From: Actinomycetota bacterium
GTDB taxonomy: Bacteria > Actinomycetota > Rubrobacteria > Rubrobacterales > Rubrobacteraceae
Length of the DNA: 32,210 nucleotides
Assembly: GCA_020200675.1 (NCBI GenBank)
Contig: JAIVIG010000290.1
Location: 1-32,210, forward strand
Reading direction: 5' to 3'
Shown: piece by piece, positions 6,801 to 25,797 of the stretch
Position numbering within the stretch: position 1 is the first letter of the stretch
How the letters are laid out: the number at the start of each line of letters is the position of its first letter
Made by a program: the position numbers and the translations under genes
The notes under the pieces: generated by a model
Database searches by the model: none
Told to the model about the DNA's origin: nothing
Seen by the model: only the letters and a program-made list of their open reading frames with translations

Positions 6801-7583
6801 ATGGCGGGGCTTCTGGAGGGCAAGAAGGTGCTGGTGACGGGTGTTCTGGATCGGCGTTCCATCGCCTTCTCCGCGGCGCGTCTCGCCCAAGAGCAGGGAG
6901 CCGAGATCGCCCTTACGGGCTTCGGGAGGGCGATGAGCCTGACCGAACGTACCGCCAGGCGCCTGGGAGATACCGAGCCGCCCGTCCTCGAGCTCGACGT
7001 GAACAAACCCGAGGACATACGGGCCGTTGCCGAAGACCTGCGGGAGCGTTGGGGCGAGCTGCACGGTATCGTCCACGCCGTCGCCTTCGCCCCGGAGGAC
7101 GCCCTCGGGGGCAACTTCCTCTCCGCCGAGTGGCCCTCCGTCGCCACCGCCCTCCAGACCTCGGCCTACTCGCTAAAAGCCCTCTCCGTCGGTCTCGTGG
7201 AGCTCATGAAGCCCGGCGCCTCCATCGTCGGCCTCGACTTCGACGCCCGCGTCGCCTGGCCGGCCTACGACTGGATGGGTGTCGCCAAGGCGGCCCTGGA
7301 GTCCGCATCCCGCTACCTCGCCCGCGACCTGGGAGACCGGGGCATCCGGGTCAACCTCGTCTCCGCGGGCCCCTTGAGGACCCTGGCCGCCAAAGGCATC
7401 TCGGGCTTCGAGGGTATCGAGGGCGAGTGGGAACGCCAGGCACCCTTAGGCTGGAGCACCGCCGACCCCGAGCCGGTAGGCCGGGCCGTCGTGAGCCTCT
7501 TAAGCGACTGGTGGCCGGCGACGACCGGAGAGCTCATACACGTCGACGGCGGCTACCACGCGATGGGAGCCCCGATCAAGTAG
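6801..7583 (+). CDS. fabI: Enoyl-[acyl-carrier-protein] reductase, FabI/InhA type
   Basis: This NADH-dependent enzyme of the last reductive step of fatty acid elongation is 260 residues long. The glycine-rich N terminus LVTGVLDRRSIAFSAARLAQ has the long loop typical of enoyl reductases rather than ketoreductases. The catalytic pair lies in PAYDWMGVAKAALES (Tyr then Lys, spaced as in InhA Y158/K165). SIVGLDFDARVAWPAY and GPLRTLAAKGI also match mycobacterial InhA, so this is the InhA-like actinobacterial branch. The start at 6801 is preferred over 6762 because GGAGGAGG lies directly upstream. It now ends next to the dnaB-tail remnant; before the island came in, fabI and dnaB would have been tail to tail. 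Confidence 0.88.
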   Translation: MAGLLEGKKVLVTGVLDRRSIAFSAARLAQEQGAEIALTGFGRAMSLTERTARRLGDTEPPVLELDVNKPEDIRAVAEDLRERWGELHGIVHAVAFAPEDALGGNFLSAEWPSVATALQTSAYSLKALSVGLVELMKPGASIVGLDFDARVAWPAYDWMGVAKAALESASRYLARDLGDRGIRVNLVSAGPLRTLAAKGISGFEGIEGEWERQAPLGWSTADPEPVGRAVVSLLSDWWPATTGELIHVDGGYHAMGAPIK

Positions 7584-7817
7584 GCGCCCCTCGAACGAGG
7601 GACCGCCGCAGAGACCGTTCCTACCGCGGCACCACTCCTCAGCACACACGGGGAAAGTTCTAGCGGCGGGCCAGGGAGGCGAACTTAGTATATTGCTCGA
7701 GCCAGGCAAGCTGCACCTTGCCCGTGGGGCCGTTACGATGCTTGCCCACGACTCTGGAGAACCGACGCTCGGTTTCTGTTCGCGCCCGGGTAACCACTCA
7801 CACGTAGCTCGCTACGA
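7584..7817. other. Spacer after fabI holding the dnaB-tail remnant
   Basis: No complete gene is visible. Just after fabI is CCCTC-GAAC-GAGGG, a weak hairpin without a T-run. Positions 7660-7752 hold the dnaB 3'-end copy described separately. CGTAGC-tc-GCTACG at 7803-7816 is a perfect small palindrome right after the end of the split gene. Confidence 0.5.
7660..7752 (-). pseudogene. Displaced copy of the dnaB 3' end
   Basis: On the minus strand this stretch encodes VVGKHRNGPTGKVQLAW and then LEQYTKFASLARR followed by a stop, the same protein end as the real dnaB at 9492, which has one more Gly. By my codon-by-codon count about ten bases differ over roughly 87, and all of the differences up to VGKHR are synonymous. 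There is no start or helicase domain attached. This is what is left when an insertion that brings its own dnaB end displaces the original end, or the reverse. Together with the end of dnaB it brackets the 7.75-9.49 kb island as imperfect direct repeats. Confidence 0.88.
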
Positions 7818-9419
7818 CTACTCTTGTTCCAGCCGCCACTCGCGCATACCTTCGAGAAACAGGATCGTACGCTCCAGGAGCGCTATGACTGCGGCCCGCC
7901 CGCGCAGAGCACCCAGTATGCGATCTAGGGTCTTTTCGTAGTCGGAGCCCTTGCGATGCGCCGCTGCCTTCGACCGCAGCGCTTGGATGTCACGCAACAA
8001 CTTGATGTCACGCTCGACGTGTTCGTAGCCTTCTTGCCGTAACCAGCGTTCGAACGGTAATGCTCTTCTCGTCTTTGACCCGAGGTTGCAAGCGTCGTTG
8101 GATCTCCCTGTCGTTCAGCCCGTCGCTCAGCAGTTTGGCCAGGATGTCCAGGCTGCCCTCGAACTCCGTCTGCGATTCCGTCAGGGGAACTCTCAACTGC
8201 TGGAGCAGGTTGGTGTCCGGACCCGTTGGCTCACGGAACAACGCCCACCCTTCCTGCTTCTGCCAGTCATCGACGAAGCGGCGGTACTTAGCTCGGAACT
8301 TAAGGTCGGGTGTTTGCGCTTCGGCCCATTCGCCCAGAAACGCTCGGCGCACGCCCGTCTGACTCATCGCTCCTTCGGGCGCCACGTTGAAGCTTCGCCA
8401 GTAATCGCGCTCACTCTTGGGTAAATCGCGACCGAGGTCGCCAAGGAACACCACGACGTGGTCGGGGCCATCGTTGTCCATCCTCAAGATCCACGAGCCC
8501 GAGCACCTGATCAAACCGTCTTCCACGTTGTACTTCTCGGGTTGTCATAGTACTTGTGGAGCACGTCCCTTCTAAAAAAGACGGGCGTCAGGTAGTCTGG
8601 CGCTTCCGGATTGGCTCCAAAGTAATTCGCCAATGCATCCGGGTTGCACGAGTGCCGCAACTCCTCCCCCTCGTCGTCGTAGCCGATAACGAAGTCCGGG
8701 AAGTGGTCGTCGACCTCCTCGTACGACCAAATACCTGACCGCTCCACAGGCGGAGGCGGGATTACCCGCGTGGCGAGATACCTGGTCATCGGTTGCGACA
8801 GGATGGTGTTTGAATAGCGCGTGGCGCAGAGTTCGTCGCTCTTCCACGTCTCCTCCGCAGGCAGCGTGACGCCTGCCGAACTGGCGTACCTAACCGAGTC
8901 AGTGAACAGCAGCAGGTCAAGTTGGCGGGCCGCCTGATACTGGCGCAGGAGTTTCGTCTTCACGCGGACCTCATCATCGGACACCTCGACCGCGACCTCC
9001 GCGGTACCGTCCTCGTGTGCCTTCATGAGGACGTGCCGTTCGTTGTCACACCAGAGGTTGTGGAAAAGCCGGAACTCCTGAATGATCTCAAGGTAGCTTG
9101 GGCTAGCGCCGTGAAACTCGCGAAGGAGCACGAGGGGCTCGACCTCGCGGTCGTCGCCCTCCCGATGGTACGTCGTGACCAGCTCGCCGTTCTCGCCCGG
9201 TCCCTGAGAGAATCCTGGCCTGCCGTCGGTCACCATCAGATCCCAGCCAGGATCGCCCAGCGCCCGCTCCCGGTAAGTCGGTGGCGCGAAGGCACAATAC
9301 ACGCCGCCGTTGTCCTGCTTACTGGTGGACCACGACCTGTACACAACCGTCCACGGACCCCGGCCTAGCGCCAAAAAGTCCTCTTGTACGTCCTCTTGGG
9401 TAAGCCACTCATCGTTCAC
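7818..9419 (-). pseudogene. Split gene of about 530 codons, unknown family, two frameshifts
   Basis: Three track ORFs (9419-8511, 8526-8008 and 8000-7818) read as one protein. The first frame ends HKYYDNP then goes off frame, while the next frame continues EKYNVEDGLIRCSGSWILRM; restoring one base near 8540 joins them. A second slip near 8048 joins KDEKSITVRT to WLRQEGYEHVERDIKLLRDI. The protein is acidic and soluble, with no signal or membrane segment. The C-terminal part, LLRDIQALRSKAAAHRKGSD, is helical and contains R-x5-H, like the RNase motif of HEPN domains; this is only a hint. I know no named family for it. It is the only gene between the dnaB-tail repeats and uses more A/T at third positions than its neighbours. 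Sequencing error is an alternative cause of the shifts. Confidence 0.7.
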
Positions 9420-9439: not shown

Positions 9440-9493
9440 CCGCCCCGCTCAAAACATTCAGCTTGCTCTTCTTGGAGGGGCGGACGGCAAGCT
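9440..9493 (-). repeat. Two interleaved inverted repeats just after dnaB
   Basis: CCGCCCC (9440-9446) pairs with GGGGCGG (9477-9483), and AGCTTGC (9460-9466) pairs with GCAAGCT (9487-9493). The arms alternate, so the two stems exclude each other or form an H-type pseudoknot. The second repeat overlaps the dnaB stop. It may act in termination or mark the island junction. Confidence 0.4.
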
Positions 9494-10883
9494 AACCGCG
9501 GCGCGCCAGGGAGGCGAACTTGGTGTACTGCTCGAGCCAGGCAAGCTGCACCTTGCCGGTTGGTCCGTTGCGGTGCTTGCCGACGATGACCTCGGCGATG
9601 CCCTTGTCGTCGGAGTCCGAATTATAATATTCATCTCGATACAAGAACATTACCATGTCTGCGTCCTGTTCGATAGCTCCGCTGTCGCGAAGGTCGGAGA
9701 GAAGCGGGCGCTTGTCGTGACGGGCTTCGACGGCTCGGGAGAGCTGGGCTATGGCGAGGACCGGCACGTCTAGGTCACGGGCGAGGACTTTGAGGCCGCG
9801 ACTGATCTCGGAGATCTCCTGCTGGCGGTTCTCGCGGCTGTTCCCGACCATGAGCTGCAGGTAGTCCACGACGACGAGCGAGAGGGGTAGCCCATCCTGG
9901 GCGTTGAGACGGCTCACGAGGCGCCGAACCTTGGCGCGCATCTCCATGAGGGTTATGCCAGCGGTGTCGTCGATCCAGATCGGGGCCTTAGCGACCTCCG
10001 CGACCCCGCGCACGAGCTTAGGCCAGTCCTCGGCCTTGACGTTGCCGCTCCTCAAGTCCTGTGTCCTTATGCGCGTGGTCTGGCTTATGAGGCGCTGGAC
10101 GAGCTGCTCCTTGCTCATCTCCAAGGAGAAAATCGCCACCGGCAGCCCCTTGTCCCCCGCAGCATGCCAGATCGCATTTAGAGCCATGGCTGTTTTTCCC
10201 ATAGCAGGCCTCGCTGCCAGTACCACGAGATCGCTCTTGTGGAAGCCGGTGGTGAGGCGGTCGAGGTCTTCGAAGCCAGACTCTACACCCGTGACCTCGC
10301 CCTCTTGCTCGTAGAGGCGCTGTATCATCTCCAAAGCACTCGGGGCGAGCTCGGAGACGGGGGCGAGGTGATCTTTTAGCTGTCGGTTGGAGACGCCGTA
10401 GATGAGTTGCTCGGCGGCGTCGAGGGCCTGGGTGACGTCGTCGGGCTCGGAGAAGGCCTCCTGCTGGATGCGGCTTCCGGCGTCGATCACGGCGCGCAGG
10501 AGCGCCTTGCCGCGCACTATCTCGGCGTAACGGGCGGCGTTGGCGGCCGTCGGCACGCTCTCGACGAGCCGGAAGACGTACTGCCGCCCCCCGATGCGGT
10601 CGAACTCGCCCACGCTTCTCAGCTCGTCCGAGAGCGTGAGCTGGTCTATGGGCTCCCCGCGCGAGTACAGGCGCATCATCGTTCCGTACAGAACCCGGTG
10701 CGTCTCAGAGTAGAAGTCCTCCGCGGCGAGCGTCTCCCCGATCACCGAGACCGCCGTCTCGGAGACGAGCATCGCGCCGATCACCGCCCGCTCGGCATCC
10801 AAGTCGTGCGGGGGCACGACGGCGCCGGCCTCGTTGGCCGCCCCCGACGGTATGCCCCGTAGATTCCTCCCCCTGTTTTCCAT
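9492..10883 (-). CDS. dnaB: Replicative DNA helicase DnaB
   Basis: This hexameric 5'-3' helicase of the replication fork is 463 residues, normal length. The N-terminal domain is about residues 25-165 (PHDLDAERAVIGAMLVSE). The RecA-like ATPase has Walker A ARPAMGKT at 224-231, Walker B region LVVVDYLQLM, and the arginine-rich DLRDSGAIEQDADMVMFLYR near the end. No intein is present. The start ATG at 10883 has no obvious Shine-Dalgarno. It lies downstream of rpsF-rpsR-rplI as in many bacteria, but a strong terminator separates it from rplI. Its last 29 codons have a second, synonymously diverged copy at 7660, so the tail, or more of the gene, may have been exchanged. Confidence 0.97.
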   Translation of the reverse strand: MENRGRNLRGIPSGAANEAGAVVPPHDLDAERAVIGAMLVSETAVSVIGETLAAEDFYSETHRVLYGTMMRLYSRGEPIDQLTLSDELRSVGEFDRIGGRQYVFRLVESVPTAANAARYAEIVRGKALLRAVIDAGSRIQQEAFSEPDDVTQALDAAEQLIYGVSNRQLKDHLAPVSELAPSALEMIQRLYEQEGEVTGVESGFEDLDRLTTGFHKSDLVVLAARPAMGKTAMALNAIWHAAGDKGLPVAIFSLEMSKEQLVQRLISQTTRIRTQDLRSGNVKAEDWPKLVRGVAEVAKAPIWIDDTAGITLMEMRAKVRRLVSRLNAQDGLPLSLVVVDYLQLMVGNSRENRQQEISEISRGLKVLARDLDVPVLAIAQLSRAVEARHDKRPLLSDLRDSGAIEQDADMVMFLYRDEYYNSDSDDKGIAEVIVGKHRNGPTGKVQLAWLEQYTKFASLARRG

Positions 10884-20800: not shown

Positions 20801-22961
20801 TCAGCCCGAGGACGAAGCAGCTCTAACTATGGCAGAATCTGCTTCCTTCGACTCGCGCAGAAGGGCGCGTATCTTGCTGGGGCTCACGGGGAGAGCCGTT
20901 ATAGAGCCCGGCATTCCGAGCGCGTCCTCTACCGCGCTGACTACGGCTGCCCCGCACCCTACGGTCCCCCCTTCGCCGGCTCCCTTGAGCCCCAGAGGGT
21001 TGTCGGGTGACGGCGCGTCTTCGCACACGAGCGTCTCCACACGGGGGACTTCGGCCGCCGTCGGTTCCATGTAGTCGATAAAGGTCGCGGCGAGGGGTTG
21101 CCCCGAATCGTCGTAGCGGAACTCCTCGAGCAAAGCTCCCCCGAGACCCTGCGCCGCCCCACCGATAAGCTGACCCTCGACGAGCGTGGGGTTGACCGCG
21201 CGGCCGACCTCGTAGGCAATAAAATAGCGTTTGATCTCTACTCCTCCGGTCTCCGGGTCGATCTCTACCTGGGCCAGGTGCACCCCATAGGGGTAGGTCA
21301 TGTGGTCCACGGAGAAGGTGCGGCGGGCGCCGAGGCCCGGCTCCTCTCCGTCGGCCAGACCGCTGTGGGGCTCGCAGGCGACCGCTATCTCCCCCAGGGA
21401 GGGGCAACAGGTCCGTCTCCGTGTGTACCACCTCTATCTCCTCGGGAGGGACGCTCAGTTGCTCCGCGGCGATCTGGGCGAGTACCGTCTCTATCCCCTG
21501 CCCCAGCGAGGCGCCGCCGGTGATCACGCGGACAGAACCGGTAGGGTCGACCTCGACGATGGCCTCCTCATAAGGTCCCGTGCCGCTCTTCTCGAGGAAG
21601 TAACCGACGCCCGTGCCGACCAACCGCTCCCCGGCTCGCAGCTCTCGCGCCTCCTTCTCCCACTCGTCGAAGCCGGAGCGCGCGATCGCCTTGTCTAACA
21701 ACCCCTCGTAGTCTCCGGCGTCGAGCACGACGTCGGTGTCCAAAGTGGACAAGGGCCTGGTGTGCGGCAGCTCGGAGGTTTCGAGCAGGTTTATCCTCCG
21801 TAGTTCCAGCCGGTCGATGCCGAGCCGCGCGGCCGCCACGTCGAGCAGGTGCTCGCGGGCGAAAGTGGACTCGTAGCGACCCGGCCCACGATAGGTGCCG
21901 CACGGGGTCTTATTGGTGAGCGCGACGTGTGCCGTGCCCTCGTACGCCGGGACCCTGTAAGGTCCGGGCAGCATGGCCAGCGTCAGGTCGGGGACGATGA
22001 CGCCGTGGGTTCGGATGTAGGCGCCGTTGTCGTGCCACACCTCGTCGCGCAAGCCCAACAGCCGGTGTTCCTCGTCAAAGGCCGCCCCGATCCGGTGTAC
22101 CTGCTCGCGGGAGTGGTTCGCCGCCACCAGGTTCTCGGCACGGTCTTCGATCCACTTCACCGGGCGTCCGGTCTCGCGAGCGAGGTAAGGCACCAAAAAG
22201 TCCTCCGGGTAGAACTCGCCCCGGACGCCGAAGCCGCCCCCCGCGTCGGATTTCTTCATGCTGATCCGGTTGAGGGGCATTCCCAGCATCTGCGAGAGAA
22301 CCCGCCGGTTGAAGTGCGGCACCTTGGTGGCGCCCCAAATCGTGAGGTGGTCGCTCCCGGCGTCGTACTCGGCCACGAGCCCCCGTGTCTCCAGCGGAAC
22401 CCCCGAATGCCGCCCGATCTTCACCTCGATCTCGACCACACAAGCGGCGTCGTGAAATGCCGTTTCGACGTCCCCGTAGCCCATACGCAATGTCGCTGCC
22501 TCGCTCTCGAAGCCGTCCACCGGCGAGGCATCGGCTTCGATGGCGCTTCGGGCATCCAGGACGACCGGTAGCTCTTCGTACTCTACCCTGATGAGCTCGA
22601 CGGCGTCTTCGGCGAGGTACGGGTCCTCGGCGAGCACGACGGCGATGGGTTCTCCTACATAGCGCACCCTGTCGCGCGCCAGCACGGGTTGCAGGAAGTC
22701 GTCGAGCTGGTGTTTGGTGCGCGTGCGGATCGGGATGGGCCTCGTCCAGGCGAGGTCCTCCCCGGTGAGTACCGCTTCAACTCCCGGAAGGGCGAGCACT
22801 TCGTCCGTCCGCACGTTCTTTATCCGGGCGTGAGCGTGCGGGGATCTGAACACCCTCATCCACAGCTGCCCGACGCGATTGACGTCGTCGACGAAGTGGC
22901 CGAGGCCGCGCAGCAGGCGGCGGTCTTCGAGCCGCCCAATTCGCCGCCCAACGACGCTCAC
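20801..22961 (-). pseudogene. Molybdenum hydroxylase large subunit (CoxL/XdhA type), deleted and frameshifted
   Basis: The reading frame opens normally at GTG (22961, overlapping the 2Fe-2S gene stop as GTGA) and carries the family domains: RRIGRLEDRRLLRGLGHFVD, the GGGFGVRGEFYPEDF region, CGTYRGPGRYEST (form-II-like active-site loop) and EVVHTETDLLP. Near 21400 it jumps frame. The true C-terminal part continues in the 21310-20801 ORF (SLGEIAVACEP, MTYPYGVHLAQVEID, GAGEGGTVG with the catalytic Glu). Between DLLP and SLGEIA about 75-80 residues that the family normally has are missing, including the GTFGSRS-like molybdopterin loop. The tail of the 712-residue track ORF past this point is out of frame. 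Protein function is very likely lost. Confidence 0.85.
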
Positions 22962-23527
22962 TGCGCGTGATCTCCCGCCTCACGCAGGGGCGACACACCC
23001 TCCACCCGGTCTTCGGAGGTCTCCTGTGAGACCGCGCTATCGACCGCCTCCGTCCCCCCGTTTTTGCCCGCTGCGGCCAGTACCGCCTCGACGATGCCCT
23101 GGTAGCCCGTACACCGGCACAGGTTGGACGACATCACCTCCCTCACTTCTTCCTCCGTGGGATCCAGCTTCTCCCTCAGTAGCGCCGTCGCCAGCATCAG
23201 GAACCCGGGCGTGCAGAACCCGCACTGCAGCGCGTGGTGGGCCGAGAAGGCCTCCTGCAAGGGGTTGAGCTGCCCATTCGATTCGAGACCCTCGACGGTC
23301 TCGATCTCGCGCCCGTCGGCCTGGACACCGAAGGCGAGGCAGGACCTGACCGCGAGGCCGTCGACGAGGACGGTACACGCGCCGCAGATCCCGTGCTCGC
23401 ACCCCAGGTGCGTACCCGTGTAGCCGAGATCGTGGCGCAGCACGTCGGCGAGGGTCCGCCGTGACTCGACGTCTACCTCGTGAAGCCGGCCGTTTACGGT
23501 GATCCTAACCGAGTGAATGTCTTTCAT
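22958..23527 (-). CDS. coxS: Molybdenum hydroxylase 2Fe-2S subunit (CoxS type)
   Basis: This small subunit carries two 2Fe-2S clusters from the molybdenum centre to FAD. It is 189 residues. The plant-ferredoxin-type cluster uses C43, C48, C51 and C63 (GCEHGICGACTV). The second, helical-bundle cluster uses C102, C105, C137 and C139 (CGFCTPG and LCRCTGY). All eight ligands are present. About 35 C-terminal residues rich in Glu, Ser and Asp go beyond the family core. Start and stop overlap both neighbours by four bases (ATGA and GTGA), showing a coupled operon. The symbol names the family only; CO as substrate is not implied. Confidence 0.93.
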   Translation of the reverse strand: MKDIHSVRITVNGRLHEVDVESRRTLADVLRHDLGYTGTHLGCEHGICGACTVLVDGLAVRSCLAFGVQADGREIETVEGLESNGQLNPLQEAFSAHHALQCGFCTPGFLMLATALLREKLDPTEEEVREVMSSNLCRCTGYQGIVEAVLAAAGKNGGTEAVDSAVSQETSEDRVEGVSPLREAGDHAQ

Positions 23528-25797
23528 GAAAGATTCCCTTCGCGCGCTCGTGAGTCTCTGATCGCGGCCCGCAGGAGGTCCGGGGTTATAGGGAGCCGGT
23601 CGATCTTGACGTCGAGGTGCGAGAGGGCGTCAGCTACCGCGCTGGCGACGGCGGCGGGGGCCCCCATTGTGCCGCCCTCCCCCACTCCCTTCGCCCCCGT
23701 CTCGGTGTACTCGCAGGGCGTCTCCAGGTGTAGGATCTCGACGGGGGGAATCTCCATCGCCGTCGGGACGAGGTAGTCCATCAGCGTGGAGGTGACGAGT
23801 TGTCCCTCGTCGTCGTAGATGAGCTGCTCGTACAACGCCGCGGCGATCCCCTGCGCCACGCCTCCCCGCACCTGTCCCTCGACGATCATCGGGTTGATCA
23901 TAACCCCGCAGTCCTCCGCAACCACGTAACGCTCTATGCGCACGTTCCCCGTCTCCGGGTCGATCTCCACCACTACCCCGTGCGTCGCGTTCGAGAACGT
24001 GCCCGGCGGATCGAAGCCGGCACTCGCTTCGAGGCTCCCCGCCTCCCCCTCCGGTAGCCGTTGTGCTTCCAGGTAGGCTGCGCGCGCCACCTCGGGCACC
24101 CCGACGTAGCGCTCGGGAGAGCCGCTGACGGAGACCCTGCCGTCCTCTATCTCAAGGTCCCCAGGAGCTGCCTCGAGCAGGTGGCTCGCCACCTCCTTGA
24201 TGCGTTCCGCGAGGAGCGCGGCCGCCTTCTTCAACTCGTCGGCGACGATCTGGGCCAGGGTCGTCTGGTGTCCCTGCCCATGCCCGCAGGTGCCGACCGC
24301 GACGGCGACGTTCCCGGAGGGGTCCATCCTCACGTGGGCGTTGTCCAGCCCCGGTGTGATCGCCATCTTCCTCAGGGCGAACGCTCGCGTCCCGTAACCC
24401 GTCCGCTCCGCGAAACAGGAGAATCCCAGGCCGATCAAACGCCCCTCGCGCCTCGCCTCTTCCTGCCGCTCCTTCCACGCGGGGAAGTCCAGCGCCCCGG
24501 CACACTTCTCCAGCGACTCGATGTAGCTGCCGGGATCGTAGACGACCCCCGTCGGGCTCTCGTAGGGGAACTCGTCGGCGGAGATCAAATTGCGCCTGCG
24601 TATCTCCACCGCGTCCATACCCAGACGCTTCGCGGCCTTCTGCATCAGACGCTCCATCGCGAAGGTGAACTGTGGCCTCGACACCCCGCGATACGGCGCC
24701 ATGGGAACCTTGTTCGTGGCCACCGCGCGCGCCCGCGACCGGTAACGCTCCAGGCGATAGGGACCCGGCATCTCCGTCGCCGCCATGAGCGGCTCGACCC
24801 CGCACGTAAACGGGTAGCACGAGTAGGCGCCCACGTCGCACAGGATGTCCGCCTCCAGGGCCAGCAGCTTCCCTTCCTCGTCGAAGGCGGCCGAGGTCTC
24901 GTACCTCTGCTCGTGGCCGTGGAAGGAGGCCGTGAGGTTCTCCTGCCTGTCTTCGGTCCACTTCACCGGCCGCTCCAGGCGCTGGGCAGCTATCGCCACG
25001 AGCAACTCCTCGCGGCTGACGACGCACTTCTGCCCGAAGCCCCCGCCGACGTCGGGCGCTACGACGCGGATTCGCTGTTGCGGGATCTCCAATACCTCCG
25101 CGAGCGCGGTGCGCACGATGTGCGGCACCTGCGTGGAGGTGTGCAGGACCAGCTTGTCCTCCCGGCCGTCCCACTCGGCCAGGCACCCCCGCCCCTCCAT
25201 CGGGACCGCCGCCAGCCGCCCCGTCTCGAACGTCGCCTCGACGACGACCGCGGCCCGCTCGAAGGCCTCGTCTACCCCGGAATCGTCAGACGAACGCACG
25301 TCGACCATCACGTTGTCTTGCATGTCCTCGTGTACGGTCCTTGCGCCTTCGGCTAGGGCCGCGTCCAGCGAGACCACTGTCTCCTGGCGCTCGTACTCGA
25401 CCGCCATGGCGTCCGCGCCGTCCTCCGCGGCATGAGGAGAGTCCGCCAGGACCAGCGCAACCGGTTCGCCGGCGTGGCGAACCCTCTCGCCCGAGAGCAG
25501 GGGCATGTCGACCCCGACGAACTCCGGGCGGTGGAGCACCGGACGCAGCCCGGGTACGTCCTCCAGGTCGGAGCGGGTGATGACCCTCTCCACGCCGGGG
25601 ACCTCAAGGGCGTCCTCGACGGAGACCCTCTCCACGCACGCGGCGCCGAACGACGACCGGGCGAAGGCGGCGTAGAGCATCCTCGGACGCTCGATGTCGT
25701 CCACGAACATCCCCCGGCCGGTGAGGTGCCGCGCGTCCTCGACCCTGGGGACCGACCTGCCGACCCAGGACCTGCCGGAGGAGCCGTCACCCGGCAT
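23524..25797 (-). CDS. Molybdenum hydroxylase large subunit (CoxL/XdhA type) with internal deletion
   Basis: This 757-residue molybdopterin-cytosine-dinucleotide subunit has an open frame. Family regions are VGRSVPRVEDARHLTGRGMF at the start, APDVGGGFGQKCVVSREELL, MAPYRGVSRPQFTFAMERLM (active-site loop, not the AYxCSFR of true CO dehydrogenase), GHGQGHQTTLAQIVADEL, and the catalytic Glu in GVGEGGTMG. After VADEL the sequence goes straight to KKAAALLAERIKEVASHLLE. The roughly 40 residues normally between them (VVHGDTD through GTFGSRS to GGSAV) are absent, in frame. That segment contacts the cofactor, so activity is doubtful. It overlaps the FAD subunit gene by 11 bases. The substrate is unknown. 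Confidence 0.85.
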   Translation of the reverse strand: MPGDGSSGRSWVGRSVPRVEDARHLTGRGMFVDDIERPRMLYAAFARSSFGAACVERVSVEDALEVPGVERVITRSDLEDVPGLRPVLHRPEFVGVDMPLLSGERVRHAGEPVALVLADSPHAAEDGADAMAVEYERQETVVSLDAALAEGARTVHEDMQDNVMVDVRSSDDSGVDEAFERAAVVVEATFETGRLAAVPMEGRGCLAEWDGREDKLVLHTSTQVPHIVRTALAEVLEIPQQRIRVVAPDVGGGFGQKCVVSREELLVAIAAQRLERPVKWTEDRQENLTASFHGHEQRYETSAAFDEEGKLLALEADILCDVGAYSCYPFTCGVEPLMAATEMPGPYRLERYRSRARAVATNKVPMAPYRGVSRPQFTFAMERLMQKAAKRLGMDAVEIRRRNLISADEFPYESPTGVVYDPGSYIESLEKCAGALDFPAWKERQEEARREGRLIGLGFSCFAERTGYGTRAFALRKMAITPGLDNAHVRMDPSGNVAVAVGTCGHGQGHQTTLAQIVADELKKAAALLAERIKEVASHLLEAAPGDLEIEDGRVSVSGSPERYVGVPEVARAAYLEAQRLPEGEAGSLEASAGFDPPGTFSNATHGVVVEIDPETGNVRIERYVVAEDCGVMINPMIVEGQVRGGVAQGIAAALYEQLIYDDEGQLVTSTLMDYLVPTAMEIPPVEILHLETPCEYTETGAKGVGEGGTMGAPAAVASAVADALSHLDVKIDRLPITPDLLRAAIRDSRAREGNLS

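Follow-up and report, generated by a model that had tools for sequence, protein, structure and literature searches.

A lone gene in the dnaB-fabI gap of a Rubrobacteraceae genome and its predicted role as a defence protein with a HEPN-like RNase domain

The window, which is the whole 32,210-nucleotide stretch of DNA that was analysed, comes from an Actinomycetota bacterium of the Rubrobacteraceae (GenBank assembly GCA_020200675.1, contig JAIVIG010000290.1) and carries a single foreign gene between dnaB and fabI. Judging from its sequence and that of its relatives, this cargo gene probably specifies a standalone defence protein with a HEPN-type RNase tail; we assign a probability of about 70% to this joint claim of an RNase tail and a defence role. 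Our model predicts that the uncharacterised N-terminal region of ~360 residues, a probable infection sensor, would release the C-terminal HEPN-type RNase when triggered. A conserved acid, R and H would then cut RNA (tRNA, rRNA or mRNA; cellular or phage), and phage multiplication would stop because the infected cell turns dormant or dies. The gene would have arrived in the dnaB-fabI gap horizontally, in this case leaving a second dnaB 3′ end behind. Four elements of this model are steps that we infer, namely the HEPN fold, the RNase activity, the infection trigger and integration at the dnaB 3′ end. The activity of the HEPN superfamily is that of a metal-independent RNase. If the protein were indeed a one-gene HEPN defence, it would add to phage defence a class missed by annotation pipelines.

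Table 1. Features of the cargo gene and its surroundings (window coordinates).
Feature	Position	Strand	Remarks
fabI-like enoyl-ACP reductase	6801..7583	+	Other flank; convergent with dnaB in relatives
Second copy of dnaB 3′ end	7663..7751	-	Remnant; reads VGKHRNGPTGKVQLAWLEQYTKFASLARR
Whole cargo gene	7818..9419	-	GTG start at 9419, stop at 7818-7820; ~535 aa/codons, broken mid-gene; homologues are single ORFs
C-terminal piece	7818..8054	-	In the frame of the start again; end of HEPN-like domain; 69% identical to L001
Predicted HEPN catalytic motif Rx5H, R-S-K-A-A-A-H	7956..7976	-	R and H invariant in 20 members
Second break	8055..8060	-	Two bases fewer than L001
Middle piece	8061..8544	-	Shifted frame; conserved acidic residue is codon 8122-8124; 91% identical to L001
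First break	8541..8546	-	One base fewer than L001
N-terminal piece	8547..9419	-	Correct frame; no known family, possible sensor; 91% identical to L001
dnaB, replicative helicase	9492..10883	-	Intact
dnaB's own 3′ end	9498..9586	-	Other arm of the direct repeat

The cargo gene is read in three pieces, the outer two (8547-9419 and 7818-8054) sharing one minus-strand frame and the middle one (8061-8544) lying in another. In the nearest relative, a contig of a Rubrobacter MAG (L001; the same DNA as G319:C448), the gene spans 546 codons in one frame, and the homologues from Pseudomonas, E. coli, Rhodococcus, Fusobacteria and Halobacterium are single ORFs of 526-594 aa. In each of the three pieces, substitutions relative to L001 fell mainly in third codon positions (positions 1/2/3: 16/8/74 in the N-terminal, 10/4/38 in the middle and 10/5/25 in the C-terminal piece), and thus the protein sequence was maintained by selection until recently. 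From these sequence comparisons we conclude that the three pieces are one gene. An earlier note, made from the letters alone, had joined the three ORFs into one protein; the single-ORF homologues and the third-position pattern bear this out. Since the homologues are single ORFs, a reading of the three ORFs as separate proteins was ruled out.

That note had also attributed the interruptions to two single-base shifts. Both junctions are where it placed them; in the alignment with L001 the window is short of one base near 8541 and of two near 8056, so that the second break is a two-base difference rather than a shift by one base or an altered base. Because the net loss relative to L001 is three bases, the start and end of the gene share a frame. 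We considered the possibility that both breaks are genuine and that this strain carries the gene as a pseudogene in decay, whatever its intact protein does, and rate this just short of an even prospect. Consistent with decay, there are two indels within 1.6 kb of the cargo gene, as opposed to zero frame breaks in six other gene matches between this genome and one relative (2,938 aa, a small sample). However, the substitutions in every piece bear the mark of purifying selection, and the contig also contains a broken XDH-like gene (near 21310). Moreover, the copies from the MAGs L001 and L002, with coverage near 1.5 (1.53 for L001), are frame-broken too, whereas the complete-genome and plasmid copies that were inspected in full are mostly open. 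The break in L001 is its own; that copy is one base short within its last ~20 codons, beyond the catalytic motif, where L002 supports the reading of the window. The breaks may therefore be assembly errors, and inactivation in the strain does not follow from them. As intact relatives are also common, the suggestion that the gene is inactivated here and hence costly lacks support.

The C-terminal LRDIQALRSKAAAHRKG contains an R-x5-H, exactly as the earlier note stated. An HEPN RNase site consists of Rx4-6H at the end of helix 3 together with an upstream acid (Anantharaman et al. 2013, PMC3710099). We aligned 20 members of the family, which are 14-58% identical to the first member, and numbered the residues according to L027. 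Within the C-terminal ~180 residues only three polar positions were conserved in chemistry, D/E429, R479 and H485. R479 and H485 were invariant (20/20) and spaced as R-x4-H or R-x5-H, while column 429 was acidic (D or E) in all 20 members; its helix assignment is uncertain, the supporting acid of HEPN proteins lying upstream of the motif, typically in helix 2. The residue directly after R, which in HEPN proteins is polar and mostly N, D or H, was S, N, H, Q, T or K in 15 of the 20 and V, L or G in the other five. An AlphaFold model of the domain (mean pLDDT 63.4, pTM 0.61) was all-helical and placed R479 in the last turns of a helix and H485 just after it, followed by a final helix of 30 residues. 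The full-length model was too poor to use (mean pLDDT 42.8).

The comparison with a predicted fold and HEPN profiles that the earlier note proposed gave a weak model and no significant matches. Foldseek with the C-terminal model (pLDDT 63.4) found no significant match, the weak match to 2q00_B, an HEPN protein according to PMC3710099, being merely a hint (E 4.5, TM 0.34/0.44). None of the members matched a Pfam HEPN profile, and hhalign comparisons with samples of RiboL-PSP, Apea and Abi_C, each set holding only three sequences, were negative. The suggestion that R-x5-H hints at HEPN is strongly backed by the sequence pattern (invariant R and H, the acid in 20/20, the spacing of 4 or 5), with no profile match. 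Because the profile tests were negative, and HEPN families share little sequence beyond the motif, we call the domain HEPN-like rather than filing it as a proven member; it is probably an HEPN domain. Alternatively, the conserved R and H could be structural or belong to another helical domain, in a protein that is an accessory gene product of mobile elements with some other function. This interpretation would account for the lack of profile and fold support, as well as for the central positions W336, P343 and N340, which are about as conserved as R and H, such that the centre may be the active part. It is improbable in our judgement, since the acid, R and H fit the HEPN pattern down to the 4/5 spacing and the position at a helix end, and since defence genes occur as neighbours.

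The family set comprises ~20 representatives, mostly intact single ORFs, from five phyla of bacteria and from haloarchaea. The taxa with homologues are Propionibacteriales, Rhodococcus, Streptomyces, Pseudomonas, E. coli, Agrobacterium, Rhizobium, Shinella, Cupriavidus, Acinetobacter, Fusobacteria, Nostoc and haloarchaea. The gene often sits on plasmids, prophages or islands of Actinomycetota, Pseudomonadota, Fusobacteriota, Cyanobacteriota and haloarchaea. Occurrence is sporadic: three of 397 genomes of the phylum carry the cargo family, and two E. coli subfamilies were detected at the DNA level in 11 and 13 of 5,426 genomes. Phage records yielded no homologue, and the sole hit in scans of viral contigs was a prophage that is identical to the E. 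coli copy. When the members and alignments were scanned, there was no significant match in Pfam, NCBIfam, PHROGs or PADLOC, and no solved structure in the PDB was significantly similar by sequence; against PADLOC-DB 2.0.0, 0 of 20 members matched any catalogued system. The existing annotation is 'hypothetical protein' only. Our literature search found neither a paper naming the E. coli protein accession nor a phage test of any family member. The family is spread on mobile elements yet is matched by none of the libraries scanned. We put at even odds the broader proposal that its members form a large, uncatalogued group of single-gene anti-phage systems of bacteria and archaea in which an N-terminal sensor of a new type would directly control a C-terminal HEPN RNase. 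The intact E. coli copy from the P2-like prophage, WP_052318713.1, makes the model directly testable in laboratory strains, and intact relatives are also available on plasmids and in archaea.

Known defence genes or defence hotspots recur beside the family in many of the loci inspected. On a P. aeruginosa plasmid (L014) the neighbours are a SAVED effector, a CD-NTase and E1-E2, that is, a type II CBASS; on a Fusobacteria plasmid (L023) type I R and M genes flank the family gene on both sides; and on a P. syringae plasmid (L010) the gene lies directly behind GmtY, a VPA1269-family gene and GmtX (gamma-mobile-trio). In E. coli (L021) it stands alone and reversed among the structural genes of a P2-like prophage, which also bears, beside the portal gene, a DUF262 gene matching NsnA/PD-T4-2_A, and the second E. 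coli subfamily resides in an island next to ssrA with intA. Further neighbours are an AAA ATPase matching mad3/LmuB in Rhodococcus (L015), multiubiquitin and ThiF genes in Nostoc (L155), a restriction endonuclease and FRG genes (L150) and, by eye, a DNA methyltransferase and a SIR2-like protein (G306 contig). The neighbours are ordinary plasmid genes in Agrobacterium (L149) and Acinetobacter (L151). A DUF4238 gene, which may itself be defence-related, recurs near the family on unrelated plasmids (L011, 9311-10324; L013, 8891-9901; L153, 3874-4755; L025, 12395-12528).

No constant partner gene, small ones included, accompanied the family gene in the loci inspected, and it is therefore likely that sensor and effector are combined in one chain. 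The same finding bears on whether the HEPN-type RNase serves plasmid or island maintenance, as a toxin-antitoxin or addiction module, rather than phage defence. Most of the relatives retrieved are plasmid-borne, albeit from the collection most searched, and toxin-antitoxin pairs commonly hold HEPN domains (PMC3710099). However, besides the absence of a constant small partner in these loci, the protein, at 526-594 aa, would be large for a type II toxin, and the gene stands alone at dnaB/fabI; we regard a maintenance toxin as quite unlikely. A variant of this explanation is that an antitoxin function may be fused in the N-terminal region.

Among known systems, the HEPN superfamily RNases (RloC, PrrC, RNase LS/LsoA, Csm6/Csx1 and Abi proteins; PMC3710099) share with the cargo family the R-x4-6-H, the upstream acid and the position of the motif at a helix end, along with an all-helical domain and the company of defence systems. 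Unlike them, the cargo family gave no significant profile or fold match, and its N-terminal region of ~360 residues is uncatalogued, with no ATPase, CARF or RT domain detected. DS-11 of DefensePredictor (PMC13092281) and the HEPN systems of Vassallo et al. 2022 (PMC9519451), as their main texts describe them, likewise combine a regulatory region and an HEPN effector in one gene and are carried by prophages; DS-11 is described as having a CBS domain, whereas none was found in the cargo family. As this comparison drew on main-text descriptions, the cargo family may be identical to a system from one of these two screens. P2-like prophages are described as established reservoirs of defence genes (PMC9122126, PMC9519451). 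The E. coli member resembles the P2-like prophage accessory genes in the text of Rousset et al. 2022 (PMC9122126) in standing alone in the opposite orientation, in a P2-like prophage with a DUF262 gene. It sits between the baseplate V and virion morphogenesis genes, in contrast to the A-Q hotspot of that text, which does not list it among the tested systems.

At the DNA level, the N-terminal and middle pieces of the cargo gene were 88.6-89.2% identical to L001, compared with 80.0% for dnaB, 82.4% for fabI and 82.0% for rplI. This excess over the core genes of two Rubrobacter lineages (89% versus 80-82%) points to horizontal movement, and the gene most likely reached the dnaB-fabI gap of both lineages in this way. 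The order in L001 is dnaB > gene < fabI, with the cargo gene ~73 bp behind dnaB, the same distance as in the window. The dnaB and fabI genes converge across a gap of 10-82 bp in at least seven relatives; in others, small native proteins occupy the gap.

In the window the 3′ end of dnaB is present as a direct repeat on both sides of the cargo gene (89 bp, 89% identical, E 6e-28), and we confirmed the earlier description of the gene as the only one between the two tails. An element that integrated at the dnaB 3′ end and restored dnaB would yield such a repeat. Diverged 3′ ends on either side of a foreign gene are the usual trace of a target-restoring element. Alternatively, the tails could be a recombination scar rather than the attachment sites of an integrating element, an issue that is independent of what the gene does. 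The 1.7-kb insert has no integrase gene, the cargo gene being the only gene between the repeats, and in L001 the cargo gene is likewise ~73 bp away from dnaB yet there is no second tail, which is absent from all the relatives' loci inspected. These features would suit a scar, whereas two diverged (89%) 3′ ends around one foreign gene fit an element restoring its target; we consider a scar credible but somewhat doubtful.

The two tails share an identical 29-bp core that holds GGCAAGGTGCAGCTTGCC (minus strand; window 9540-9557 and the copy within 7663-7751). Tyrosine-recombinase cores are often inverted repeats with a spacer. GGCAAGGTGCAGCTTGCC is an inverted repeat with a 6-bp spacer and resembles such a core, but it may also simply stem from coding constraint.

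Many Rubrobacteraceae relatives (L047-L058) have long, intein-like in-frame insertions in DnaB near residues 229 and 401, giving frames of 833-1390 aa; the DnaB of the window is without them. An origin of the insert as a dnaB intein remnant was rejected, as the relatives' insertions lie near those two residues and the cargo gene lies outside the dnaB frame. In six relatives (L033, L036, L042, L046, L053 and L056) the dnaB/fabI gap holds a small predicted secreted protein, and these gap proteins share a conserved C-terminal motif (VTLCHKDKVTISVGAPAxPAHLRHGD-like). Elsewhere in the window, the frame-broken XDH-like gene, a molybdenum hydroxylase gene at 20801-22961 (minus strand), has an intact relative with an 811-aa frame (G174). 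The adjoining XDH-like protein (23524-25797, minus strand; 757 aa) by eye seems to be missing an in-frame stretch after VADELKKA that is present in other family members.
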